This document shows, piece after piece, positions 19,732-36,300 of a DNA stretch of 64,000 nt. The stretch lies in assembly GCF_036370855.1 (NCBI RefSeq), contig NC_088100.1:34360563-34424562 (forward strand). The letters run 5' to 3'. The DNA is from Dromaius novaehollandiae. Lineage: Eukaryota; Chordata; Aves; Casuariiformes; Dromaiidae. The position numbers and the translations under genes were made by a program. The stretch's first letter is position 1. Each line of letters starts with the position of its first letter. The notes under the pieces are model-generated. The model had not been told where the DNA came from. It searched no databases and worked only from the letters and a program-made list of their open reading frames with translations.

Positions 19732-20280
19732 TCACCTTGAAGTTACTGAAACAAAGTAAGTGATTATAGGTAGTGTTAGCACCTATGGACTTGAATATAG
19801 AAGTGAATTTTCTTAATTCATTGTATTTTGTACCTGTCACATTTAAATAATACATGCATGTACACTAGTCTAAAAAAAAAAATCTGGATTAATTTTATGT
19901 AGAAAATCTCTTTGTGTTCAGGCATTATTTTGAGTTTAACTTCAGAAAAGTTAATTTCAGTACTATTTCCTTAATGCATTATGTACTGGTTAAAAAGCCA
20001 TTATGTACTGGTTAAAAGCAAATACTTTTTAAAATTAATTGCTCTATTAACATATGAGAATGTAAAAGATAATTTTTCCTTTTTTTCAGAGAATTGGAAT
20101 AGTGAATGTAGGTGATACTTGTTGGTGTGGTTTCAAAATACTGTACTTTGATATGCCATGTCGGTAGCATGCAGGAGTATTTCTGATGTTAGCTTACAGT
20201 TATTTGAAAACTGCTTTGTTTGCAGTAACTGATGTTTGCTGAAGCAAGTATTTCATATTTTAAAAATAAAACTTGGCAAG
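19732..20280 (+). other. DDX43: DDX43 3' UTR with a probable intron and poly(A) signal
   Basis: After the stop at 19729-19731 there is a strong donor (AAA|GTAAGT, GT at 19756) and a strong acceptor (a T-rich run then CAG ending at 20089), giving a likely 334-bp 3' UTR intron. The stop lies only 24 nt before this junction, under the usual ~50-nt threshold for nonsense-mediated decay. A canonical AATAAA at 20265-20270 predicts cleavage near 20280-20290, which is inside the first copy of the 90-bp repeat that starts at 20275. Confidence 0.65.
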
Positions 20281-20364
20281 AGTGGTTCAAGTGCCTCAGC
20301 TTTGGAGGCCAGGAGGGCTGGGCTGGAGGCGGGATTGTGGATGGGTGCTGTGGTAGCTTGGTAA
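20275..20364 (+). repeat. 90-bp direct repeat, left copy
   Basis: About 94-95% identical, without gaps, to 30224-30313 (by eye about five differences, all transitions, three of them at CpG positions). Both copies share GTGGTTCAAGTGCCTCAG and GGGATTGTGGATGGGTGCTG. The offset between copies is 9,949 bp. The left copy begins 5 bp after the DDX43 AATAAA signal. Flanking sequences outside the copies do not match. Confidence 0.9.
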
Positions 20365-21480
20365 AGCAGTTTCCCGAGCTGCAGGCAGAACATGGAGCGC
20401 TAAAGCAAAGGCCTCTGCTTGCTGCATCCTTGTGCTCTTTGGAGGCCTTGTGTGTATGTGTGGAAGAGAAGTCAGCGGGCTGAAGGGAGCTGCCATGCAA
20501 AGAGACTGCGGACTGACAGGGCAAGTCTTCAGGGAAAGAGCTGGGGGGAGACAAGCGCTCTCTGTAGAGACTATGTCTTGTGGGGTCTGTGTGCATTTGG
20601 GGCGTGGTTAATTGTTGGGTGCTTGGTGGACTTTTTTGAAGCAGGGCACGAGCAAGCTCAGCGGGGCTGGGCCACGCTTTTAGGCAACGCCTTCACCCTC
20701 CGCCTTGTTCCTCACCAATGTGTAGAGCTCCTCTGTGTTCTGTCCACCTGCCTTACTTTCCTTTTGTGTGTTGTAAGTGCCTTCAAAGGGGCTCCCAAAG
20801 GACAAAGAACAGTGTCCTTGTGCAGAGGCTGGAAGCTCTGGGCCCATGTGTCCCCAGTATTTGGAGGCCAGCTAAGGTGGCTGAGCATGCCTGCCCTAGG
20901 ACAGAGCCCTGCTTGGGCCGAAGAGACATCCCTTGGCGCTCTCGTGAAGTCTCTGGGCTCGTTCTGCCTGGCTTTTGCGGTGTGCTTGCAGGCCAGGAAG
21001 CAGGCAGCTCCTCTTCCTGGGATGCCTCGTCTTGTCCCAGCCATCGACCGCGCGTCAGCCACCAAAGGACTCCGTGGGGTTTTGCTTCAAGACAGTGTGA
21101 AGCCCTTGTGATAGGTTCTGTGGCCCCCGAGTCTGTGCACTGAGCCAGCTGCGTGCCTGGGGGCTCCTTTTCCTGTAAGCTGCTTCTGCTGCTGCAGCAG
21201 CAGCAGCACTTCTTGGCAGCTCCTCTCCCACCTGACTGCTACCTGCCGCTGTCTGGGGGCGGCCCCGCATTCCCCAACACAGAGGCATTTCTGCCCCAAA
21301 TCTCGCTTGTCCTTTCTGGCAGCAGCAAGAGCAGCGATGCTGCTGCCCAGTGCCTTCCCTTCCGGCTCCGTAGCTCTGCCAGGGCGTTCAGGCAGAGCCG
21401 CCGTCCCTGCCCAAGGGTAGAGAAGGAGCTGTGAGACGTGCAGTGCCGGCGGCTTGGAAAGGGAGACAAGGAGCCGTCAA
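20365..21480. other. Downstream flank of the ARHGAP20-like gene inside the 10-kb block
   Basis: GC-rich sequence between the left 90-bp repeat and the poly(A) signal of the minus-strand gene. It contains a short CAG/CTG stretch at about 21187-21210. Several open frames exist on both strands (for example 20419-21111 plus) but none shows a recognisable domain or exon-like boundaries. I see no gene here. Confidence 0.5.
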
Positions 21481-21500
21481 ATAGGGCTGCAGAAAAGTGC

Positions 21501-21506
21501 TTTATT
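21501..21506 (-). terminator. Poly(A) signal for the ARHGAP20-like transcript
   Basis: AATAAA on the minus strand in the context GACAATAAAGCAC. It is the first canonical signal I noticed downstream of the predicted stop at 24055 that is not inside the pyrimidine array. If used, the 3' UTR is about 2.5 kb and includes the polypurine array unless the array is spliced out. The assignment is an inference from position and orientation. Confidence 0.5.
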
Positions 21507-21644
21507 GTCATCAAGTTACAGGGCAGCCCAGGCCAAGTGCCCCTGCTCCTGCTCCAAGGCTCCCCCGAGCCCCAAGTGGGGAGCTGGGCGCTGACCAAAG
21601 ACAGCTGCCGGCGGGTCAAAACACACTGCCCGTCCCGTCCCGTC

Positions 21645-23880
21645 CCGGCAGGGTCCCCGCTGTGACAAGGTGAGGAGGCTGCTGCCAAGGCTGTTTGCTT
21701 CCTTGCCTTGTTGTCTCTGTGTCCTTGCTTTCTCTCCCCTTGCTTTTCTTCCCTTGGTAGTCTTTGTGCCGTTCCTATTGCCCTTTCCCCTTCTTCTGGC
21801 CTTTTTCCTTCCATTTTTGTCCTTCCCCTGTTTGCGTTTGTCCTTTTTTCTTTCTTCTGCTTCTTCCTTGCTCTCCTGCTGTTCTCTTGGCTTGCTTTGC
21901 TTTCCTGATTTTTTTCTTTTTCCTTTCCTTTTTTCTTCCCTTTCCTTCCTCTTTCTTCCCTTTCTTTCTGGTTTTCCTTTTCTTTCCTTGCTCTCTCTTT
22001 CTTCCCTTCCTTTTTCTTTCCCTCTTCCCTTTTACCTGGCCTTTCTTTCTCTCTTCTTTTGCTTTCTGGGTTTCCTTTCACTTTCTTTCCTTTTAGCTTC
22101 CCCTGCTTTTCTTTCCTTTTCACTTTCCCTTAGTCTTGCCTTCTTCCTTGTCCTGTTTTTCTCTCCCTCACCTTCTGGCTCTTTTCTTTCCTTACTTGTC
22201 TTTCCTCTTTCTTTCTATTTTTCTCTCCTTTCTCCTTTCCTTCTTTTGTCTCCGTTTCTTTCCTTTTTGCTTTGCTTGTTTTCATTTCTTTGCTTGCTTG
22301 CTTTCCCCTTTTTCTCCCTCATCTTTCTTTCCTGGTGTCTGTCTTTCTTTCCTGGTGTCTGTCTTAACCCAGGAGCAGCAGCTGTAGCTCTTTCAAACGG
22401 GACTCCACAGTGTTCCCTTGCAGGTTTTGCCATTGTGACAAGGTGATAAGGATGCTGCCACAGGCTTTTTCTCTCCTTCCTTGTTTTTTCTCCTTGTTTT
22501 TCTTACTTCTTTTCCTTCCTTTTTTGCCCTTCCTCCCTTTTCCATTTTGCTCTCCTTCTTTCTTGTCTTTTCTTTCCTTTTTTCTTTCCTTTCCTCTTCC
22601 CTTTCTTCATCCTTTTCCCTTCCCTTTTCTTTCCTTTTTTTCGGTCTTCGTTCATCTTTTTCCGTTCACCAAGTTTCTTCTTTTTCTTTCTTCTTTTTTG
22701 TTTCTTTTTCCTTTCTCTTTTTCTTCTTTTTTCTTTTTCCTTTTCTTTCCTTTCTTCTTTGCTTCTTTCTTCCCTTTTTTCTCTCCTGATGTCTTTCCTC
22801 TTTTCTACCTTGCTCTCTTTTGTTCCTTTCTTTCTCCTTGTTTTCCTTCCCTTCTTTTTCTTTCCCTTCTTGCTCTCCTCTTTTGCTTTCCCTTTTTTGC
22901 TTTCCCCTTTGGCTTTCCTTTCTTCTCTTCCCTTTTTTCTCTTGCCCTTTTTCATTCATTTGCTTCCTTTCTTTCACTTCCTTCCTTTTCATTTCTCTGG
23001 CTCTTTGTCCTTTTTCTCCCTGGTCTTGCTTGACTTCTGCTTTCCTTTCCTTTTCTTTGTCTTACTCTGTTTTCTCTCCCTCCTTTCCTTTCCTTTTGCC
23101 TTTCCTTTTCTTTCCCCTCTGTTCCCTCCTTTTTTCTTTGTTTCCTCTCTTCTTCCACGCCTTTCTCTTCTTTGGCCTTCTGTCCCAAAGGAGTGGCAGG
23201 TGTAGCTCTTTCAGACAGGGACCCACCAGGGTTCCTTGCAGCTTTGCCCACTGTGACAAGGTGATCAGGATGCTGCCAAGGGGTTTTTCTTTCCTTCCTG
23301 CTTTTTCTTGCCTCTTTTGGTTTTCCTTCTTCCTGTCACCTTTTTGGGTCTTCCTTCTTTGTCTCTCCTTCTTTCCTTTTTTCTTTCATTTGTCATTCTC
23401 CTTTATGCTGTACAAAATTTTCTTTACTGTTTCCTTTTCCTTTAATTTTTTTCTCCTTACCCTTTTTTCCCACCTTTCTTCCCTTTTTTCATTGCTTCTT
23501 GCTCCCCCCCCCTTTTTTTATTTGCTTTCTTGTTTCTTTCTTGTTTTTCTGGTTTTCTTTACATTTCCTTCCCTTCATTTTCTTGCCTAGCTGCTTCTTG
23601 ATTCTCCTTCTTCCTCCTTTTCTCTCCTTTCTTTCTCTCTTGCTGGGCTTGTCTCTCTTTTTTTACTCTCCTGGTTGATTTCCCTTCCTCCTTTCCTTCT
23701 TCTTCTCTCCTTCTTCTTCACATTTCCCTCTGCTTTGTTTCTTTGCTCTCCTCTTTCCTGTCCTCTTTCCTCTCCTTTTTGCTTCATTCCTGCTTCTTTC
23801 TGGTGTGGCCCAAAGGAGGCCCACACTGAGCTCTTTCCAACAGCAAGCCACAAGCTTGCCCGTGTGGTGTTGTCTTGGCT
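21645..23880. repeat. Higher-order tandem array: about 800-bp units of core plus polypyrimidine tract
   Basis: On the plus strand, long CCTTT/CTTTC-type tracts (about 21693-22360, 22462-23175, 23280-23800) are separated by a conserved non-pyrimidine core. The core contains TGTGACAAGGTGA, beginning at 21661, 22433 and 23252 (spacing 772 and 819 bp), followed by GGATGCTGCCA-like sequence. The upstream half of the core (GTAGCTCTTTC with CCCAAAGGAG or similar) recurs near 22367 and 23184 and, altered, near 23808. This makes three units plus a partial one. On the minus strand the tracts are polypurine and read as Lys/Arg/Glu-rich frames, which I do not regard as proteins. Confidence 0.85.
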
Positions 23881-24054
23881 CCTGCAGGAGCATGCCTGAA
23901 GCTGCTCCTCCTTTCACCTCCGCCTGCCCAGCTGTGCAGACTAAAAGCACCTCCCAACAGCCACAGCTTGCTGCATCCATGCCCACGGCGCCCTTGGCGG
24001 GCTCTGGTGGCTCCCAAGCCGGGGCCGGCACGCAAGAGAAGTGCTGGTGACTGC

Positions 24055-27000
24055 TCAGATGGTTCTCGTGGCCCACCAGCAGCGAGAGGCAATGGCAGCA
24101 GGTGCCAGGCGCGTGCTGGAGGGGCCATGGGAAGCAGGCAAGGCGCTGTCCAGGGAGGGCCTGGAGGACGTTTGGGCTGGAGCACCCCGGGAGAATTGGG
24201 CAGGCAACACGGCAGGCTGCTTCTGCAGGGCCTCGTGCTCCAAGCGCAGCTCTTGCTGCCCAACAGCAACATTGTCCATGCTTCTGCTCTGCTTCTGGCG
24301 CCTTCTGCTGCCTTCCGAGCAGTCCTGCAAGGACAGGGCTGGCTCTGAGCAGCTCCTGTCCATTGTGCTGTGATTGTTTCTCCCAGGAGGCAGCAGCGGA
24401 GGGGCAGAGGCGCATGTTGCATATGCCCTGCTGCCGCTGGGGCTTCTGCCGCTGGACGGCTGCTGCGTCTGAGAGGTTGGGGGGTGGCCTGCAGCTTCAG
24501 GCTGTGGGCTGCGGTGCTCAGCAGCATCTTCCAGTGCAGCAGCTGGGTGTCCTGTGGGCGGAAAGAGCCTGTTAGCACCTTCTGAGTGGCCCTTTGCAGG
24601 GAAAAGGGGCTTTCCCCGCAGGACCACGCAGCCCTGGCAGACGGCAAGCTGCAAGCCTCGCCCCTCTGGAGGTGAGGAGCAGTTCAGGAGACACAAGGAC
24701 CCCCGGGGGCAATATCCTGCACAGGGAGAGTGCAGCTGTAGTCCATAGTGAGCAATGCTGTGAAGAGAGCTCAACAGAGGTTTAACCCCTGGGCCGCCTT
24801 GTGTGCAGGGAGCATTGTCATTTGCAACTTGTGGCAAGTGCTGCAGCACAAAGGCACCCCCATGAGCTATGGACCCCTCTGCACCTCTCTGCATGTGGGA
24901 AGACACCTGCCCATAGCCGGCTCCAGACCTGGAAGCAGCAGCCCTGGGCAGTGCCAAGCCTCCGGGCAGCCTCCTACCTGCTGGTGTGCTCGGAGGAGTC
25001 CTGGGCAGAGGAGCTGCCAGTAAAGGCCATGTCCTCTCCAAATATTGCTGTGCAGTTGTCGGTAAGGAGTTCCACCAGCACCGTCACCTGCACACACAAA
25101 GCCCCTTGCCCTGATGCCCATGGTTGAAAATGGGATCAACGGTCTTTGCTGCTCCCGACTGCCGTTTCTGCCCCAAAAGCTGTAGCTCTGGGGCTGCAGC
25201 TGCAGGAAGAGATTTGCCTGTCAGGTTGCAGAGAGCCCAGCTGAGGGGCACCCCCCATGCTCCCAGTTGCTGCTGCTGCTGCAGTTAGCTTTTGCATTGG
25301 CCATGGGATGTGTGGGCATGGCTCGGCTGTGCCCTGAGCAGGCAGCTAGCTGGCGAGTTCAGCAAACTGTGTTGTTCACCTCCTTCAGCACTTGCAGCAG
25401 CAGCGTGCTGACGTTGCCTGGGCTCAGCATGTTGGGCCCAACGCAGATGGCCAGGTTGCGGAAGCCCATCCTGCTGGTCTCCGCGTTCTGGCTGATGCGG
25501 TGGAGCACAGCAAGGACGGCCTGGAGCAAGAGGCGATTTGCCCGCGGCAGCTGGTCGGCCACCCTAGGGGAACACAAACAGAACGCGCCATGACTTCAGG
25601 CGGCAGCGGCCGCTGCTTCTTGCTGCAGGCAAGTCTCCAGTAAACTCCCACCAGTGGTGCCTCCTCCACAGAGAGCAAGGCCCCTGCTTTCTGTCCCTGC
25701 TTTACACAAGTCCTCCCCAGAAACCCCCAACAGCAGCTGAGCAGCTGCTTAAGCACTAGGAAGCTGACAGAAAGCACAGGTCTTTGCAGGCGCCTCCCCA
25801 CTGCCAGAGGAGGCCCCGGCCTCTCCCAGACACTCCAGCACGCTGGCACTGCCTACAACACTCTTTCTGTTCTTCAGTCTGTTGCTCCTTGCTTGGCTTC
25901 TCCAGAGCCAGCATCCACTTCTCATACAGGGCTGACGACAGGAGCGTGGAGGGGATGTTGCGCAGGAAGTCCTGCAAGGCCAGCACATGGACCTGAGGCT
26001 TTGCACATCAGCCCTGAGCCCAGAGCGAACATCTGCGGCACTTGGGCTCCCCAGGAGGCAGCTTGCTTTGAGCTACCTGCTTTCCAAGGTGCTCATGGCC
26101 ACTGGCCGAGCAGTGGGCTGCGCAACTCCCTGCCGTGCTGGCACACGCTTGGCCCTAGTGCCTGTCAGCCTAGAGTCCACCCCAAAATCTCAGCCTTCCT
26201 TCTTGAGGAGGTTGCTGAGGACAAGGAGGAGGAGGAGGTGGAGCAGAAAGAAGTGAGTTTCCCATGGGCAGGCAGGAAATTGGTGGCACAACAAGGGGAA
26301 CTGACAAGCAGATGGAAAAGACAGGTGCCCAGCTTTCCCCAGCCTGAAAACACGTCTGCTTTCCCAAGGCTTTCAGCTCTGCGTGCCCCTGGGCTCAGCT
26401 AGGCACTCGAGTGGGCCCCTGCAGGACCGCAATGTCCTCTCACAGCTGCAAGGCAGAAGACTTCACCTTCAGGATGACAGCCAAGAGGTGCACTGGCTGG
26501 CTTTCCAGCTCCACGGTGCCTCCTGTGTTGAGGGCCTCCTTCAGCTCCCTGCGAGCTTTCTCGCTGGCAGCTTTGCGGAAGATGCCCTCGGTGGCAGGTC
26601 CTTCCCTGTACAATATGGCCAGGAGATCCTGCAGGGAAAAGCAAAGAGAAGAGTTGTTCGGGTGCAGAAAGGCCTGTTGGTGGTGGGACCCGGCCTTCCG
26701 GCCTTGCCAGGGAGCAGTGCGTGTGGAGGCCAAGCCGCCAGGGGCCTGTCTCCTGAGAGCCACAGCCCAAGCGCTGGGCATGGCTGCCTGGCGCGAGAAG
26801 CTGGGTATGCGCATGGCCAGACTGGCTGACCTGGACTGGCTGGAGCAGGCTCTCGTCTTTGCCGCAAAGCCTTGCCAGAGGCTGCCCAAAGAGAGGGCTC
26901 TTGAGGACAGGCTCCGGCTGCCCTGGGCGGTCCCCGTTGACCGAGGTGCGCCTGCGAGCAAACGGCCACGGGATCAAGCGCTTCCTTTTCGTAGGCCCGT

Positions 27001-28269
27001 GAGCTGCAAGCAAGAGGAAAGCAAAAGTCAGCTTCCAAGAGCAGGAGGTGAGCTGGCTGCAAAACGGCCGAGTTGGCTTTTGGCATGGCCAAGGTGCTGC
27101 CCGGGGAGGCAGCAGGGGCTGCTGCTTTTGAGCGGCTCTCGAGCGCTGGGTGAGAAGGCGGCTGCTCAGCTGCTCTTTGCAGCTCACCAGGCGAGTGGCA
27201 AAGTCCCTCCTCAGGAGCTGAGGGCACCAAGCCAGGGCCTTGTGTGGTGCCAGCCTGCAAGAAACGGGTTCAGGTTGCAGAGGCGCCCCGCAGCAGCAAG
27301 GGCTGCCAGTGAGTGGCTGCAGCCGGCCACGCCGACCCGGCACTGCAGGCCACAGCCCCCTGGCAGTTTTGGGGGGCTGGTGGAAGCCAAGCAGGTTGGG
27401 CAGCCCCGCACAGGGCGCCCAAATGTGGCCCCAGGGCACAGGCTGCCCTCCCGCGCTGCCCCCGGCTCCGGGCAGCTCCTCCCAGAGCGCCACGGCGGGC
27501 AGCGGCCGATGTCTCGAGGCCGTCGGCCCCGGCCACCCGCCCTCCTGAACCTCAGGTACCTGCCACCAGCACCCGGCAAGGGCCGGGGCAGCAGGAGCCC
27601 CCGCTCACCTCTGCCGAAATCAACGCCTCCACCATCTGGGCACTCGGCGACGCCGACTAGGCAAGAGAGCAAAGAGCCACCATGAGCGGCCGGTCGCAGG
27701 GGCTCTTCCCCAAAGCCCCCGGCGCTGGGGGCGGTGCGGCAAGCCCAGGGACACTTACGGGGCCGGAGAAGCCAACGGCCTTCACCAGGAGCCGGAGGGA
27801 GCCAGGCGGGTGACGCGGGTCTCCAGGCTCCTGGGCTCTGCCTGGGCACGGGGCAGGCACAAAGGCAGAGCTGGGTCACAGCCAGCCCTCGCTGCTCGCT
27901 CCCCTGCCCCAGCCCGCGCCCCCACGCCACCCTGGCACAGCAGACCTTCCCGCCGCGCGCGTGCGCTCATGGGCAGCACCGCTCAGCAGCGCCCCTGGGG
28001 CGATTTGCCCGCGGCAGCTGGTCGGGAGTGGGAGGAGACAGCTCTGCCCGGAGCTGCCCTGCGCAGGGGGTGTCCTGCTCCCCCCCCTCCACTGCTGCAC
28101 TGCTGGCGGCAGCTGCCCTGGCAGCGCTCCACCCCCTGCAGCCTGGACGCCCACCGCCGGCGGCCTGAGTTGCGCGGCAGGGCTCACCTGAGCATGGCGC
28201 TGAGCCACAGCTCCTTCACCTCCTGCGACCTGCAGCCAAGAGGAGCAACAAGCCTCCGAGCCCACTCCT

Positions 28270-28308
<39 letters not shown>

Positions 28309-29056
28309 GTGCAGAGGCGCAGGCCCCCAGGCCCCCGGACTCACCGGAAAGTGACCACGCAGAGGTCGCTGGGCCACACGAGGATGAGGCTGTTGGCGCA
28401 TTTCAGGCCAAAAACCTCCTCCTCCTCCTGGTCTTCCCGCCCGCGCGCTGCCTCATCCTTGCTGCACAGCACCCACAGCTCGCTGAGAGGCACCCGGTGC
28501 TTCAGCAGGAAGGTGGAGCCGCACCTGCCGGGAGGAAGAGCAGGGAGCGCCTTGGAGGCTGTGCGGTGGGGGCAGCCCCAGCAGTGCTGCAGGGCAGAGC
28601 CATTGCCCAGGGGCAGAGCCCTGGGGCAGCCAGCCTGAGCCTCGGGCAGCAGAAGTGTGCTCAGGGGCTGTGGATGAGGACGGCAAGAGCAGGAGGCGGC
28701 CCCTTTCCTCTTAGAGCGCCCTGCATTCAAGGGCAAGCGTGTCCCTCCTCGCAGCCGGATGGCTGCGGTGGTTCTGCTCACTTGAAGCTGGCGATAGCGA
28801 CGGCGTTGGGAAAAAGCAGGAGGTGCCTGTCCCGCGTGCGCTGGTGCCGCGTCACCTGTGCACGGTCACTGAGCAGGAGCCGGGGGCTCCTGCGCGACAC
28901 GGAGGCGCCGAGGGGTGCTGGGCGCCGGGAGGCTCCCCTGGCCACGAGCCCGAGGCCGGCGCCAGGAGCCACGCGGCCGGGGGCCCCGGGCCGTGCCTGT
29001 GAGCCATCAGCGGGGCTGACGGCGCCCCGGGCACCGCAGCAGTTGGCCTGTCCCAT
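24055..29056 (-). CDS. ARHGAP20-like Rho GTPase-activating protein (PH, RA-like, RhoGAP); exon map incomplete
   Basis: Predicted to stimulate GTP hydrolysis by a Rho-family GTPase at membranes. Exons I can place: 28782-29056, 28345-28524, 28188-28229 (PH: RHLLLFPN, HRVPLSELWVL, SQEVKELWLSAML); 27759-27837, 27609-27656 and one starting at 27544 (RA-like: SLRLLVKAV, SAQMVEALI); 27188-27254 (tentative); 26831-27003 (linker: GPTKRKRLIP, SPLFGQPLARLC); RhoGAP 26467-26628, 25862-25971, 25368-25563, 24978-25087; last exon about 24055-24551 (MDRSCSEPAL, KQSRSMDNVAV). Phases agree wherever both sides are placed. GAP residues are present: arginine finger in GIFRKA, Lys in ILKDFLRNIP, Asn in NLAICVGPNML. 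The start MGQANCC fits an acylated N-terminus. The end of the exon at 27544 and one exon between 24978 and 24551 are not placed, and two donors (after 25862 and 25368) are weak. ARHGAP20 similarity is clear; whether this copy is functional is not. Confidence 0.8.
25532..25558 (-). repeat. 27-bp perfect repeat, copy in RhoGAP exon
   Basis: The sequence covering DQLPRANR at the start of the RhoGAP exon 25368-25563 recurs without mismatch at 27999-28025, in the same orientation, 2,467 bp away. The bases immediately outside differ at both ends. Confidence 0.9.
27999..28025 (-). repeat. 27-bp perfect repeat, intronic copy of a RhoGAP exon fragment
   Basis: Identical to 25532-25558 but located in the intron between the third PH exon (28188-28229) and the first RA-like exon (27759-27837). 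It has no splice sites of its own in the matching position, so it looks like a copied exon fragment and not an alternative exon. Confidence 0.9.
28271..28306. repeat. (CTCCTG)6 hexanucleotide repeat
   Basis: Six tandem CTCCTG units in the short intron between the second and third PH exons of the ARHGAP20-like gene (GGAG-rich on the transcribed sense). Read directly from the sequence. Confidence 0.9.
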
Positions 29057-30223
29057 GGCGCTGCGGCCGGGCAGGCGGCTGCGGTGTGGCCGTGCCCCAG
29101 GCCGAGCAGCGCCGGGCGCCGGCCGGGCCCGAGCGAGGCTGGGAGCGGTGTCCCTGTGCTGGCAGTGCTGCTGGGCTGGGAGCCTGCGTCTCCCCGCTGC
29201 CCCGCGCTGGCACAGCGCCGCACTGGGGCACGGGCGGGCGTTGGTGGCCGTGGCCACCCGGCTGCCACCGCCGCACACTGTGATGCGCTGTCTGGGCCGC
29301 AGCGCAGCGCTGCTCCAGGGGTGGGGGCCGGGGGCTGCGGGCGCGCGGGGCAGCCTTCCTGCCACGGCTGCAACGTGCCCTGCGGTTGCTGGGACAGCAG
29401 CACTGCAGCTTTGGAGGCGGCCTGTGCCCACTGGAGAACCAGGGTCCCGATGGTGCCCCAGATGCCCAACTTTCATGCTTCCTCTGCACTCGCCCAAGGT
29501 GCCAGGGCTTCTGAATCAGACCCTGGAGTGTAAAGCAAGCAAGCTGCCCTGATTCCCATGGACCAAAGCCATGGTAGCCCACCTGAGCGTCTGGCCTTGC
29601 AGCTCCAACACAGCTGCCCTGCCAAATCACTCTTGGGATGCCGGCGGGGATCTGCAGGTGTGCAAAGGTCCTTTGTGTCCCCAGGGGTGCTCCGAACTGC
29701 ATCAGGTCTGCTGCGTCCCTCCGCTCCAGGGTGGTTCGCTAGATTCGGAGGCTTTCAGAAATCTGGCTATGAAACCCCTTCATCTTTTTCCATTCAGTAT
29801 TTTGAAAAGGGCTGCTGTATGCATCTGGAAGCAACAGCGGGGCACAGCATCATAGCCCAGCTGAGCTTTGGTGTGATCTAAAAGCCCAGGAGCACACAGA
29901 CACAAGGAGCTTCCTTCAGGCTGTGACAAGAGCCTGAATTCCAGCACTGTCTGTCACAACAGGGCCTGTATCTTCTTGCAGCCCTCCTCATGCTGGTGTG
30001 TTTAGAGCATCTCCTAGAACTTAATTAGCAAGAGGGATGTCTGAAGCATGTGCTGCCATCCTGCTGCTGGAGCAAGCCAAGGAGCAGAGGGGCCTTGCCG
30101 ACATGGCTTGGCTCTTGTGCCAAAAGCCAGCTGCTGGTGACACCACTGTAGATGGGCATTTGGTCTTTCTGGCTGGCCAGCCCAAGGCAGCTTTGAGCAA
30201 GGCCCTCCAAGAGTTGCCTTGCT
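29057..30223 (-). promoter_or_regulatory. 5' flank and probable promoter region of the ARHGAP20-like gene
   Basis: The first 500 bp upstream of the predicted start (29057-29550) are very GC- and CpG-rich with no TATA box, compatible with a CpG-island promoter carried inside the block. From about 29550 to the right 90-bp repeat the sequence is of mixed composition and shows nothing recognisable. Open frames on both strands here lack domains. Confidence 0.4.
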
Positions 30224-30313
30224 GGCGAGAGTGGTTCAAGTGCCTCAGCCTTGGAGGCCGGGAGGGCTGGGCCGGAGGTGGGATTGTGGATGGGTGCTGT
30301 GGTAGCTTGGTAA
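30224..30313 (+). repeat. 90-bp direct repeat, right copy
   Basis: Partner of the copy at 20275-20364. It retains CpG where the left copy has CA or TG at the differing positions (for example GGCCGGGAGG against GGCCAGGAGG), so it may be nearer the source sequence there. Beyond 30313 the sequence becomes AT-rich and resembles ordinary intergenic DNA of the window. Confidence 0.9.
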
Positions 30314-31645
30314 GCCATTTTTGTTAACACTTGTGTCAAACTTTTTTGAGAGAAGTCTGCATTTCCTCTCAATGGAGAGGAGCACATAACAAGAGGTCTG
30401 TGTTCATGGCTAACTGAAAAAAAAAAAGGAACTACTACTTTTGTGCTCAGGGATGTAATGTTTTAGCTTAAGGGGGGAAAAAAGTAGTTTACCAGAGTGA
30501 TACTAACAAAGTCGTGAAGAGCAGCTTGGAAAAATACATTTGAAGGTCAGCTTTATTTCTTTCAGATAAAGTTGATTCAAATCTTCCACTTCAATGTCAG
30601 GTTCTTTCATGTAGACTGCTAATGGTGATGGAGTATCCTTTCACTCTTCAGAAGTTAAAGGGAAGGGGCTGTTTCTATATAAATGACATCATTGGTCTGA
30701 ACTAGTGTTTACTTGCATGTGTCATATGAGCAATTTTAGTAAGATAATTCTCTGAAGTTTCTTGGGTTTTTTTTTAATAATTGAGGTGAAATGTGGTCAT
30801 TATTTAAGTTGATAGGTATTTTGCCTTCAAAAAGTAGGCTAAAAATATGGACTTCCTGTGTCTTCCTCCTTAAGAAAAGCAAAAGATGTAGTTTTGTACA
30901 GCACAGCAATTCTCAAATGCTGTATATTTATCAACTGCAAAATTTTAAAAGTAGGGAATGCCATAATTCTTTTTTTTTCTTAATGCTCCTCAATGTAAGA
31001 AAAGTTGAGTTGAATTCTATCTGGGCAGATTAATGAAGAGTTGTCTAAACTATAGCCATCAACGCTATTCAGACAAAGCAGGATGAACTAAAGTGTAATT
31101 GTGCCCAAGTTGCTCTCTTGCAATATAGCAGAATTTTGAGTTTCGCAAATGAAGGTGAACAAAAATCTTCGAGAGAATTTCCGTGTTGTTCTGCATTTTG
31201 ATTTTGATAAGCTCTTAAATGGAAACTCTTTGATACGGGTGGAAATGATGTGTATTTTTCTACAGGGATCTCCACACAAATGCTGACTGCTACAATAACT
31301 GGCATTACTGGATTTCCAATGCAAAAACATGGCTAATACTAATGATGCACTAGCATCATAACTAGCAGGCCTTCATAATGTTTTTGTATCAAATTACTTG
31401 ATATTTGTGGCACTAATGTTGATCTGTGCTATCTTCCCCCTGCATTTTTTTCATATCCTAACCTCAGGTGTAGCACACTGGATAATGATTGCTTCCTTTG
31501 CAAAGTCTAGTGAAAAGACTAATTTCCAATGCAATTCTGAAGACTCAGAAAAGAAAATAAGCTACTTGAGGAACATAGCAATATTTTGTTATCATATTCT
31601 GTCCGTGCTCGGTGGTGCTGGCGACTATCCTCTGTGAAGGTTTCT
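30314..31645. other. Intergenic, no gene seen
   Basis: AT-rich sequence right of the 10-kb block. It has no splice-bounded open frames, no recognised repeats and no RNA gene. Short open frames such as 30791-31033 show no family similarity. Confidence 0.6.
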
Positions 31646-32860
31646 GTTAAGGGATGTTAAAAGGGCTGCTGCCTCTGGTGGCTCCAAGACCTGGGGATTC
31701 CTCTGGGGAGCCCAGCCCAGTGTATGTGGGGACCTCGCCGTCTCTCTGTATCAGGCTGATGGATGCAGAAGCTGCTCTTCCACGTGCATGTTCACCCAGT
31801 AATGAGGCTGAGTGTGTATCGCAGAGACACACACACACACACACAGACAGAATGCTAATGTGGCTGGTGGTGCAGACTGTCATGGACAAGGCACTGCCTT
31901 TGACAGGACCCACGTGTAACCCTAACTCACATAAACAGAATGCCCCCTTGCCCATTATGTAGGCCTCTGGCCTGCCAGCTACTCCAGCGTGATGCTTGCT
32001 AGCAAATAGATGTACGTGTTCTTCTCACAAGCACCCCCACACTTGCAGAACTCTCAAATATCAGCATGGGCTCTCTGTCAACATCTCTGCCCAGACTCTG
32101 GGCCTCCTGCTTGACACACACATGGTTAAGGGAAAGCACACAGCCATGCATGCAAGCACATGTGCACAGACACAATCAAGAGGAAAATACAAAGACACAA
32201 GTGCTGTGACCTGTGGTCCTGCTCCAGTGACTGATGCTAGGACCCTCTCTTGCTCCAGTTGCTGGCCCCAGATGTGGCGGCCTTTATCACCTGAGATCTG
32301 ATGCCAGTTGCTGGCCCCAATTTCCCTCTTGTGTTTCCAGTTGCTGTCACCTAAACTTTACAGCACTTGCACAAGATAGAGTGTTAGATTACACAGAAAG
32401 ATGGTTAAGGAGGGGTTTAATAAGAAGATAGGACGGACTGCAATGGTCAAGCAAGGGTACTGAGTGGCAAGTGCTTACACATAACCAGACCTTTATATAT
32501 CCCCTCTTCTCTATTGCCCACTTTGTTCTGCAACAATCCCCTTCTTCCAAACACTTAATAAATTTTGCATAGCACCACAAGCCCCCTCCTTATGTTTGTC
32601 TTGTTTTCCCCTCATCAGTTAAAAAAAAATCCAGGTTTGTCCTCTCCAAACTATGCCTGTAGTCTTCTAACGGCCCATCAATTAGCGACTGGAGGCTTTA
32701 GGTCTTGGTCATTGTCCCAGTTATCCGCTGCCTCTGGGGTTTGTGCTTGTGTGTGTTTTGTTTATTGCTTTCCCTGATGCTCATGACTCCCCTTAAACTG
32801 AAAAAGTCCTTGATCTGATACCTTTAATGAAGCAGATGCTCTCACATTCCACATCCTTAC
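31646..32860. other. Unclassified repeat-like intergenic segment
   Basis: Composition and word use differ from both sides. An AC dinucleotide repeat lies at about 31826-31846. The phrase CCAGTTGCTG recurs around 32256-32345. A TATA-like TTTATATATCCCC lies near 32490 and AATAAA near 32558. These are the kinds of signals found in degraded LTRs, but I recognise no family and cannot define ends. A minus-strand AATAAA at 32761-32766 could serve CGAS. Confidence 0.3.
32761..32766 (-). terminator. CGAS: Candidate poly(A) signal for CGAS
   Basis: TTTATT on the plus strand (AATAAA in the CGAS sense), 572 nt beyond the CGAS stop codon. I noticed no canonical signal nearer the stop. A 3' UTR of about 0.6 kb is an inference. 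Confidence 0.35.
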
Positions 32861-33337
32861 AGCTTCCCTCTACCCACCTGATGTTGAAGTTCTGTTTCAT
32901 GTCGAAGTAATTATAATGACTTTTACAATCCAGCTTTTTTTTTTTTAAGTAAAAGTATTTTGAATATTCTGCAGTGAATTTTCATTTTAAATAAAACTTG
33001 TTTTTCACTTTAAGGCACCGGTGACATGGTAGTCAATATTTGGAATTGCAGAAATTGCACCTAGCAAAGTGATTCTTGCAAGTTCTACACATCTTAGTGT
33101 ACCCTGAAGACATTTTGCAGGTGACATCTTCATTTGCACAGGGAAAGATAGAGTATTACTTAAAACATTGTATTTCTTCTAAGGGTTATGGCCAAGTAAC
33201 GTGATTGAAATATGCAACTGACTGTTCTTCATTGTTACTGTTTTCCATAGTACCAGACTACTAAGAAATAACTTACACTGTTAGTCTTCAAGTATGCAAA
33301 TTTTTGCGTTTTCATGCAGATATTGTAAATAATGTTT

Positions 33338-36300
33338 TTAATTGTCCTGTTGAAATATTGGGAATCTGTTGTTAATCTGATAGTTTATTTCCCTTGAAAG
33401 GAAGTTGTTGCTTGCTTTACCATTCAGGCTGAGTAAGTTGTACTGGGGAATAAAAAAGTGTGGAAGTTGACAATTTTGCAGGCAATCCAGAAAATATCCC
33501 AGATATTGATGAAAGCAGCGCTCTAGGTCTGCCCACTGCCAGTCTTCGTCATGTGGCCAAATGACACATGAGTGGAAAAACGCAGTTTTGATGTGATATG
33601 AACAGAATTTTTCCAACTCTTTTTTATATTTTGTTTTAAGTTGCTCTAGCAGATACTTCAGAAGTTTAAGACAATCTTTCCTGTTAAATAAAAAAGAATT
33701 GATTAGGTATTTCCTACATAATTCCAAATATCTAAGATGCACCTTATTCATGAAGGCAAAAAAAATGTTCTTACTGTGATGGAATAGTATCTTCAATAAT
33801 GTTTTGTATAAAATCTGAAAATAAAAGTGCAGTAGTAGGCTAGATAGTCCTAGAAGTACTGCATATGAATTTATTTAATCCTAACAATGAAGGATTTCTA
33901 CTTTAAAAAGTAGTTTTTGTGCATGAACTTAATTTTCTCTGGCAGCCACAGCAACACAGGAGTAGAAAGCGCTGGTCAGCAGTGTGCTCAGCAGTATAGT
34001 CTCCCTACTGCAGATGCCACTAGATGTGATGTGAACTTGGAGGACTGCTGAGGATTAAAGCTGCCCTTTTGGCTTTACGGTGAAGGGAATATGGCCACAT
34101 TCCTGTGGCGTGAATCAGTCAAGATGGAGAGGTGTAGTTCATTACATTGCTAAGCAGGGGCACAGTGTGTCTGATAATATTCCAAAAGTAAACATAAAGA
34201 ATTATGTATCAGTTGTGACTCTTCTGACTTTCTTGATTCAATACCACATACAATTAAACTAACTAAACAATGGAGAAGTTGTTTTACCTTTAAGTGTATT
34301 CTGTACATTATGTGGTTTTGTTCTTTCTGTGGAACCCAGTTTTTATTAGTGAAAAATAACATTTATTGATCCTGATCCCATTCAGCCAGTCTTCTCTTGC
34401 CATCATTTAAGAAATTGCCTTGGTAGGAAATGTAATTTGCTCTCAAAGTGCAGAAAGCAGAGTCAGCCGTTTGAGCTAATTTTTCTAAATAGGACTGGGT
34501 TTGGGAAAGAGTACTTGACAAATCACATCAGTGGACTCTGTAAACCAAATTTGGAGCCTAAACCTGCAACGTAATTTGCTTCCATCTGTCATTGACTGAA
34601 TGGAAGTCAGACATGTTCAGTGAGGCATGAAAGTTTGTACTACTGTCTACTGTAGAATAATGGTGTAAGAATTAGTGCTTAAAAGCCTCATTCTCACTCC
34701 TTTTTATGAGTTATTACTCTTAAACAAATTCTTCTTAATTTAAATGTAAAACGGAAACAGTGCTAGATAGTAATATGGCTCAAACAAGCTTAAAGTAAAA
34801 TATTCATACAAAATACCAACCTGCAACATTTTTCTCCATCAGATTCACAACATGTCTTTGCGCTGCCATGGTTTTGCATAATTTCCTTTTCAATATGTGA
34901 AAAAGACAGTCGCCAAGTGTTTCCTAAAGTGTTGAGTAGAAGGTCATTAAATTGGTACACAGCAGTAGTATCAGTGTCTATAACTAACAAAAAAGACATT
35001 TTTAATTTGACTTAATTAGAATATCAGCAATTTCCTTGCACTTTAAAAAAATGATTAATTCAGCAATTACTGTAATTAATTAGTTCCTCCTTAATTCCCC
35101 TGCCACTCCACAGAATCACAATTGGACTGCTATTAACATGGGGCAGAGTTAATCATCTGAATGCTCTAACGATTTTCCCTCTTATAAGGATGTTTGGGTT
35201 CACTTTGAAATTAAGCTTAATTCTGAACTTCCCTGCATTTGCTGAACGTGATTAAGGGAATAATTACACTATCCACAGAAATTACTACTTCTAAATCTGT
35301 TCTGTATTATCAGCCTTACCATTTAACCATTTTGTTTTTGAATAAACAAATCTTGATGATTGGTATAAATTTCTGTATTACTCTGCAATTAATATGCTCG
35401 TAAGCTTGTCTTAGGTAACTTTTAAAGCATTTCTTTTGTTCTTCTGTTCATGTTTCTGAAAGAAAAAATTCACATAGCTCAGCTCACTTTTTTACAGCAC
35501 CAACAATCATGTTTGTCTTTCTCACATAAGTTAGACTGTTTCTCTGCTCCATTTTGTTTAGTTACTATTTACATTTAATTTTCACTGGAAGAGATAGCCC
35601 AACAGAGTAGTAATGACTTTTATTTGGCATTGTAGGAAATGCCTATGCTAATTAAAAAATACCAGGCTGCCTCAACTCTTTTTGCTAAAATAGACTGTTC
35701 TCATAATCCAACGATTAGTTGCGGTGGTTCCTACAAACTAATATAGGCATGGGTTGATAGTCATCTGAGAAAAAGTTATATAGCAGTCATACCAATTGGA
35801 GTTTAATGCGAAATACTGTATCTTGCCAGAAAAGTATAAAATTTACTGTGTAGAAGTACATAATTTAGGACTGCGTGTACAGTCCCATTTAGAGCGATAT
35901 TCGGCTTTTTAGAAATCTTAAATTCTTTCAAAGCAGAGGAGTGGATATTGCTGTTAAGTATGTTACTATCGTAGGGAAGATCCATATTCATGTGTCAGTC
36001 AATCTGGTATAATGCTGTTAGGAATGGATAGTATATACACTCTGGCACAGCAGTTTTGTTTTCAGATTTCGGTACAGATTGAGCAGTGTCACAAATCTGA
36101 TGTTTTACAGAGGGTTTTCAGTTGTTTTTCATCTGGAAGTATCCAGTATAAAAATAAAGATCGGTACCTTGAAGATACAATAATGAACAGAATTTGGATA
36201 CCCATTTTATGGCACTTGTAAGAGATCAAGTTGAAGAAAAGGTATGTCACAACATAGGCTTATTGTCTGTATTTGAGATACCTCTTAGCACCTTTTCTTC

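Follow-up and report, generated by a model that had tools for sequence, protein, structure and literature searches.

The window, by which we mean the whole stretch of 64,000 nucleotides analysed here, contains a GC-rich block lying between two neighbouring genes. The left neighbour has exons encoding DEAD and Helicase_C domains, and its AATAAA signal at 20265-20270 lies four bases ahead of the block; on the right there are exons of cGAS on the minus strand, the last of them at 33341-33874. We take the left gene to be DDX43 from its domains and its position; a PDB search at an E-value of 1e-60 returned chains of DBP2, DDX17 and DDX46, with no DDX43 among the matches listed. The placement between DDX43 and CGAS given in a preliminary description of this DNA was confirmed in this sense. 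The main features of the block are as follows (A17 is a related locus described below):

20274..30313, strand not applicable: inserted block, corresponding to one unit plus 91 bp, with its parts in circularly permuted order relative to A17
20274..20364, plus strand: R1, the terminal direct repeat R at the left end, starting 4 bases past the AATAAA assigned to DDX43
21501..21506, minus strand: AATAAA read directly from the sequence, a candidate for the poly(A) signal of the ARHGAP20-like gene
21661..23801, strand not applicable: pyrimidine-rich tract of diverged tandem units of ~800 bp, separating the last coding exon from the poly(A) signal
24055..24552, minus strand: candidate C-terminal coding exon
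25031..27001, minus strand: RhoGAP exons 25031-25087, 25377-25562, 25861-25971, 26467-26628 and 26831-27001
28188..29056, minus strand: ATG at 29056 and PH-domain exons 28782-29056, 28345-28524 and 28188-28229, with GT/AG splice sites
30223..30313, plus strand: R2, right copy of R, differing from R1 at 5 of 91 sites

The gene predicted within the block is oriented on the minus strand and scored 81.6 bits for the RHG20_PH domain and 132 bits for RhoGAP, the best solved chain for the latter being 3msx, Rho GTPase-activating protein 20. Both the PH type and the closest solved RhoGAP chain fit a member of the ARHGAP20 family, to which we assign the predicted gene. GT/AG splice sites were present at the inspected exon edges with one exception, a weak donor near 25861, and the EGIFRK motif was intact in the RhoGAP exons. 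ARHGAP20 carries a Ras-association domain between the PH and RhoGAP domains; none was recognised in the reading frames of the block by by-eye inspection. The exons and a candidate poly(A) signal of the ARHGAP20-like gene described previously were located.

The repeat R was first detected as a 99-bp direct repeat (20274-20372 and 30223-30321, 92% identity, spacing 9,949 bp), and its true limits, TGGC...GGTAA, were set at 91 bp by comparison with its relatives. With the pyrimidine tract inside the block set aside, no self-match in the window is stronger than this repeat (BLAST E 2e-34). The earlier statements that the same sequence occurs at both block ends, that its copies differ mostly at CpG and that the block is GC-rich all held: the copies lie 9,949 bp apart, four of their five differences fall in CpG columns, and the GC content is ~50-70% outside the tract compared to ~33-45% in the flanks, the step coinciding with the outer edge of R on the left as well as on the right. 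Only one unit is present in the window, with no second neighbouring unit as a tandem array at the site would have. No target-site duplication was seen at the ends of the insert, the longest word common to both flanks being 6 bp and not located at both ends. Viral contigs contained no match to a 34-base core of R.

Searching R against its own genome yielded six matches, all on one contig (C3). At all four loci outside the window, R is internal, with the end of the block, R and the start of the block following one another contiguously. A transposon with terminal repeats was rejected on this basis and from the missing target-site duplication. The idea that R originated as host DNA and was doubled as a long target-site duplication at a staggered break is hardly credible: direct repeats border some human duplications, and a possible origin in overhanging breaks has been discussed (PMC9132208), but R belongs to the unit and is continuous with it on both sides at the four other loci, and the GC content changes at the outer, not the inner, edges of R. 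A segmental duplication with target-site duplication was rejected for the same internal position of R.

One of these loci, A17 (C3:17.4348-17.4494 Mb, ~14.6 kb), is a single-gene ARHGAP20-like locus and the nearest complete relative but one. It lies 17 Mb from the block in a non-tandem position, and the introns are kept in the block. The identity is 85-93% in most stretches outside the tract and 77% with gaps at 28754-29491; most stretches differ by 7-10% substitutions, which agrees with the earlier view that the event was not very recent. Pieces kept in A17 but absent from the window recur in part at 67.5, 70.4 and 87.5 Mb, indicating that A17 represents the older form. At the five sites where R1 and R2 differ, compared by hand, A17 equals R2 at three and R1 at two, which fits both copies changing after one insertion. 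A comparison of the window with A17 revealed the following features near the right end of the block:

29492..29494: scar, with A17 bases 32678 to 34232 (1.55 kb) missing; E35, a further relative, has the same scar
29495..29639, plus strand: fragment similar (72%) to the AT-rich flank on the right of A17, found elsewhere in the genome only in E35 (first 88 bp)
29640..29645: fusion point, six bases between the right-edge and left-edge sequences of A17 (tail-to-head joint)
29646..29870, plus strand: fragment similar to the left edge of A17 (87% over 29676-29870), with no other genome match
29869..29870: scar with a 2-bp overlap, with A17 bases 20030 to 21488 (1.46 kb) missing

Two edge sequences lying ~14.5 kb apart in A17 are placed tail to head in the window, 6 bp apart and in direct orientation, an exchange of order that a circular intermediate would be expected to produce. 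A genome search with window 29480-29880 gave four matches, namely itself, E35 (29480-29582) and the two edges of A17; conversely, the left edge of A17 (700 bp) and its right flank (C3:17449099-17449599, 501 bp, in a search skipping very common words) each had one other match, the window block. The latter result led us to reject the right flank as an interspersed repeat. The right-edge match is 72% over 145 bp, and 25 of its 40 differences are A/T in A17 and G/C in the window. An order flip from A-B/C-D to B-A/D-C is described for human segmental duplications with circular intermediates in part of the report by Chicote et al. 2020 (PMC7450558). Permuted order, donor ends fused at one point (the right edge at 72%), a non-tandem site and retained introns were all observed here, as was microhomology or a short indel at the joints, the window showing 6 inserted bases and an overlap of 2 bp, and E35 a common CCCA.

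The relative E35 (C3:35.93 Mb) carries the window scar (29491|29495) and apparently represents a younger copy of the window lineage. It has a tail-to-head (backward) joint of its own, leading from ~23.5 kb to 20843 with the common CCCA. Its end pieces derive from a second unit that is 2.5-5.3% different, which points to the past existence of several window-type units, at least two; an origin of E35 from a circle that contained nothing but its own unit was rejected because the end pieces are unlike the interior. Query 20365-21480 gave 73 matches (40 scored of 91 candidates), with E35 at 99%, A17 at 88% and the rest at 70-81% besides the window, and the donor unit of the end pieces was not found among those 40 scored.

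From these sequence comparisons, we consider it probable that the block is an intron-containing, DNA-level copy of A17, or of a lost sister, made via a circle that opened inside R. The part order is circularly permuted between A17 and the window, the A17 edges are joined with 6 extra bases, and R stands at both ends. The donor segment would have closed into a circle, or a polymerase would have jumped from the donor end back to its start, and two pieces of ~1.5 kb would have been lost beside the joint. The circle may then have opened inside R, leaving 91 bp at both ends either by filling in of overlapping ends or by copying that ran slightly beyond one full turn, and the opened unit would have been inserted next to the poly(A) site of DDX43 with no visible target-site duplication; the window lineage may later have yielded E35 by another tail-to-head event. 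The previous suggestion that the repeat-body-repeat structure reflects one period inserted in circular or array form is supported by the internal position of R at four of four loci and by the fused A17 edges. Counting against a circle from A17 are the low right-edge match (72% over 145 bp), the second window-type unit implied by the E35 end pieces, and the single non-CpG difference between R1 and R2 in 83 sites, compared to ~6% expected if both date from the A17 split (P 0.037). A more tentative extension, for which we see a limited chance, is that serial circles carried the ARHGAP20-like gene from 17.4 to 34.4 to 35.9 Mb with a new opening point each time, the second unit of E35 lying in unassembled DNA, for example in an unassembled or germline-restricted array; the generations would then be readable from the order of parts.

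An unlikely alternative is that the block is a linear piece of a tandem array, either of just over one unit or shrunk from a longer array by unequal recombination, with R1 and R2 stemming from neighbouring units. The family does form arrays: an old one at C3:87.5 Mb has neighbours ~9-11 kb apart that are 72-78% alike, and relatives ~80% alike form large arrays with a period of ~12.6 kb on many contigs. The many copies with a ~10-kb period anticipated earlier were not found for the present unit. The second unit behind the E35 end pieces would suit an array, and the 5.5% between R1 and R2 is compatible with that degree of divergence (P 0.20 at 3.4%). However, no array with 29495-29870 appeared in the searches, where the only occurrences of this stretch beyond the window and E35 were the left and right outer edges of A17, a single-copy locus with one of these edges in AT-rich flank, and a random cut would seldom leave just 91 bp beyond one period (~1%, our own estimate). 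Replicative template switching (FoSTeS/MMBIR), in which a polymerase jumped backward at A17 and no free circle formed, seems improbable. Three scars inside 380 bp, together with the 2-bp overlap and 6-bp insertion, would suit it, and NHEJ or MMBIR is considered for such joints in the part of Chicote et al. used here (PMC7450558), but the polymerase must return and pass its own start by 91 bp, and a circle needs fewer steps. An assembly artefact with one false copy or junction is very unlikely; nothing was found in its favour, R1 and R2 differ at five sites and each lies in a different flank, and E35 independently has most of the block interior.

Gene movement via a DNA circle is known, but rarely documented for whole genes. 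For colour-sidedness in cattle, Durkin et al. reportedly described in 2012 a serial translocation of KIT by circular intermediates, with segments of up to 480 kb on chromosomes 6 and 29; the emu case shares the serial steps, but both occurred on one contig rather than between two chromosomes. We know of no earlier bird case of circle-mediated gene copying. Among the matches listed in the literature searched, nothing was found on an ARHGAP20-like expansion in birds and nothing on point for circular intermediates in birds; the nearest items were pigeon eccDNA (PMC6993614) and, in the part of a chicken paper concerned, one citation (PMC8980806). The Nile tilapia vasa gene (Fujimura et al. 2011, PMC3245284) is similar in that, according to part of that report, a whole intron-containing gene with its upstream region reached a distant site via a circle, but it involves a ~28-kb circle from a gene that normally has a single copy, whereas ~10-14.6 kb and an array-forming family are involved here. 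The human circular-intermediate duplications resemble the emu block in three respects: the parts change order from donor to copy, the joints carry microhomology or short indels, and the sites are not in tandem; they differ in that the portion of the source drawn upon (PMC7450558) mentions no over-length terminal repeat, while the emu block has 91 bp at both ends, and in that a second-generation copy is present in emu. The duplicated lcr16a gene on human chromosome 18 is likewise bounded by direct repeats, but as far as this part of the account goes (PMC9132208), its flanking repeat consists of kilobases of host sequence, whereas here the repeat belongs to the inserted unit.

The circle mechanism is already known from cattle KIT, tilapia vasa and human duplications, and the emu block appears to be a further case, in a bird. 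The earlier proposal that ARHGAP20-like genes spread through bird genomes as self-contained units is supported as far as the emu genome is concerned, with A17, the window block and E35 all on C3. One assembly contains the probable donor together with a first copy and what seems to be a later copy in the same lineage, and the fusion point and the opening points are readable nearly to the base, so that the way in which intact genes jump far becomes testable. The locus also gives a place to ask why ARHGAP20-like genes are so numerous in the emu genome.

The window is placed at C3:34360563-34424562 of the 1.47-Gb assembly, C3 being the contig that carries it. The direct repeat reported at the ends of the ARHGAP20-like block in the preliminary description was borne out (20274-20372 and 30223-30321, 92% over 99 bp, spacing 9,949), and comparison with the relatives sets the extent by descent of this repeat, termed R, at 91 bp from TGGC to GGTAA. 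Past these 91 bp, the left copy (R1) runs on as family unit and the right copy (R2) as different DNA. The GC step coincides with R at both block ends, and no target-site duplication was visible at the block. The block and its neighbours contain the following features:

20265-20270: AATAAA at the left neighbour, a DEAD/Helicase_C gene taken as DDX43
20274-20364: R1
21661-23801: pyrimidine-rich tract of diverged tandem units, roughly 800 bp each
25532-25558 and 27999-28025: a 27-bp RhoGAP-exon piece repeated exactly, 2.5 kb apart, the second copy lying between this gene's PH exons and its RhoGAP exons
29056, minus strand: ATG of the ARHGAP20-like gene
30223-30313: R2
right of the block, minus strand: cGAS

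A genome-wide search with R scored 6 candidates and yielded 6 matches, none outside C3; besides the two window copies, R occurs once each at 17.44, 67.55, 70.37 and 87.48 Mb. The order block end, R, block start was found at all four loci outside the window. The 17.44-Mb locus (A17) is a single gene unit within the 40 kb inspected, the 67.55-Mb locus holds more than one gene fragment, the 70.37-Mb locus has an intergenic piece alone within the 30 kb inspected, and the 87.48-Mb locus is a tandem array whose neighbours lie about 9 to 11 kb apart and are 72-78% alike. After E35, a younger copy at 35.93 Mb, A17 is the nearest relative of the window block among the best 40 of 120 candidates scored in a RhoGAP query and the best 40 of 91 in a query with 20365-21480.

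In window coordinates, A17 runs 29646-29870, 29869-30222, R, 20365 to 29491 and 29495-29639, and the window runs from R to 29639, through 6 bases, and from 29646 to R. Because of this order of parts, the joint in the window corresponds to the right edge of A17 linked to its left edge. As the key test, a genome search with window 29480-29880 gave four matches, namely itself, E35 (29480-29582) and the two edges of A17. The right flank of A17, which is AT-rich and lies about 330 bp past the end of the GC-rich unit, and its left edge each had the window block as their single other match, and neither was found to be a common repeat in this genome-wide search, which skips very frequent words. Window and A17 are circularly permuted relative to each other, whichever is the donor. 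Two pieces kept by A17, one of 1.46 kb and one of 1.55 kb, are missing from the window; because parts of these are also present at 67.5, 70.4 and 87.5 Mb, the form of A17 is the older one. The match at the right edge extends over 145 bp at 72% identity. Among its 40 differences, 25 are A/T in A17 and G/C in the window, and 3 run in the opposite direction, a bias not as strong in the other stretches tested. Elsewhere, A17 and window are 85-93% identical in most stretches, about 75% in the tract and 77% at 28754-29491, which lies next to the right-edge match and is likewise rather diverged. The right-edge divergence would be accounted for by GC-biased conversion acting on AT-rich sequence placed in GC-rich surroundings, or by descent from a lost sister of A17; a chance match is unlikely, since the match is unique, has an E-value of about 1e-11 and agrees in where it lies and how it is oriented.

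E35 spans C3:35.925-35.935 Mb. In window coordinates it begins with tract sequence (from 23353 to about 23.5 kb), continues with 20843-29582 and a further piece of tract (22140-22637), and then passes into AT-rich DNA. Because its interior is nearly identical to the window (35 of 8,722 aligned sites different, 83 gap columns) and both have the scar 29491|29495, where A17 sequence is missing, E35 is a member of the window lineage. Here too the joint is tail to head: sequence ending at about 23.5 kb is linked back to 20843, and the two sides share CCCA. The end pieces are 2.5-5.3% divergent from the window (16/466 sites, three segments), compared to about 0.6% for the corresponding interior of E35, and thus derive from a second unit. 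This unit was not found among the best 40 of 91 candidates scored in the genome search with 20365-21480.

Ages are given in relative terms, without dates. Window and A17 differ in 5-8% of non-CpG columns and 31-43% of CpG columns in the two stretches adjoining R; for window and E35 the values are 0.29% and 1.8%, respectively. R1 and R2 differ at 5 of 91 sites (1/83 non-CpG, 4/8 CpG columns); their CpG divergence is in line with the A17 split and the non-CpG divergence is somewhat low (P 0.037). Assuming that the insertion started out with identical R1 and R2, it predates the separation of window and E35 (P 4e-5 at 0.4%).

In the block the order of parts is permuted, the A17 edges are fused and R stands at either end, and its lineage includes a further copy, E35. 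It carries those sequence hallmarks of circular-intermediate duplications that the assembly could test. The donor unit would have closed into a circle, or undergone a backward template switch; the circle would have opened within R, and the opened unit would have been joined next to the poly(A) site of DDX43. The main rival is a linear fragment of an array, or an array that stood at the window site and later contracted; it is retained because the end pieces of E35 are the strongest indication that there used to be more than one window-type unit.

Beyond these loci, searching for further family members with 401 bp of RhoGAP sequence found at least 76 matches (best 40 of 120 candidates scored), and a 46-base word of the array-type unit gave 92 matches on 25 contigs, every one exact in a search allowing up to 3 mismatches. 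Four runs were measured, and most array-type steps in them are about 12.57-12.61 or 12.71-12.73 kb. Because array-type matches are 76-80% alike in the RhoGAP query, these 12.6-kb arrays are not the direct source of the block. A large layout of minus-strand ARHGAP20-like units, a gap and plus-strand units recurs on contigs C16, C21 (twice), C22, C25 (twice), C79, C93, C142, C190, C207, C237 and C253. The gap is 89,845-89,901 bp in 8 of these 13 pairs, which were chosen by eye, and 89.5 to 99.5 kb in the other 5; a core of ~90 kb with inverted array arms seems itself to have been multiply copied. Two array-type units on C3, at 22169241 (L039) and 22555270 (L038), lie 386 kb apart and are 99.7% identical over 3.2 kb. 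No neighbour unit of either was among the matches listed for the 401-bp query or the 46-base word, and they are possibly further single-unit insertions.

From its ATG on, the block's gene has three exons that encode a complete ARHGAP20-type PH domain (RHG20_PH, 81.6 bits), and after these the RhoGAP exons (132 bits); the best solved relative of the RhoGAP domain is ARHGAP20 (3msx). The gene structure covers the PH and RhoGAP exons; they contain no stops and have GT/AG at the edges inspected, except for one weak donor near 25861. The tract is situated after the last coding exon and ahead of the poly(A) signal, so a gene end at 21501 would make it a purine-rich 3' UTR or an intron. Over 144 codons, dN/dS was 0.49 in the comparison with A17 and 0.20-0.26 in those with three older relatives, which shows past constraint on the family; expression of the window copy does not follow from these values. 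The arginine-bearing EGIFRK was found in the window, E35, A17, L034 (C3:71.9 Mb) and units of the 67.5- and 87.5-Mb loci. Eight of 16 array-type loci (L035-L050) were translated, one of which (L037) has a stop in one exon. All eight (L035, L037-L040, L044, L047 and L048) have EGIFCK or EGIFHK; the RhoGAP arginine-finger position is C or H there and R in those dispersed C3 copies that were examined, and the amplified array-type units may encode GAP-dead proteins.
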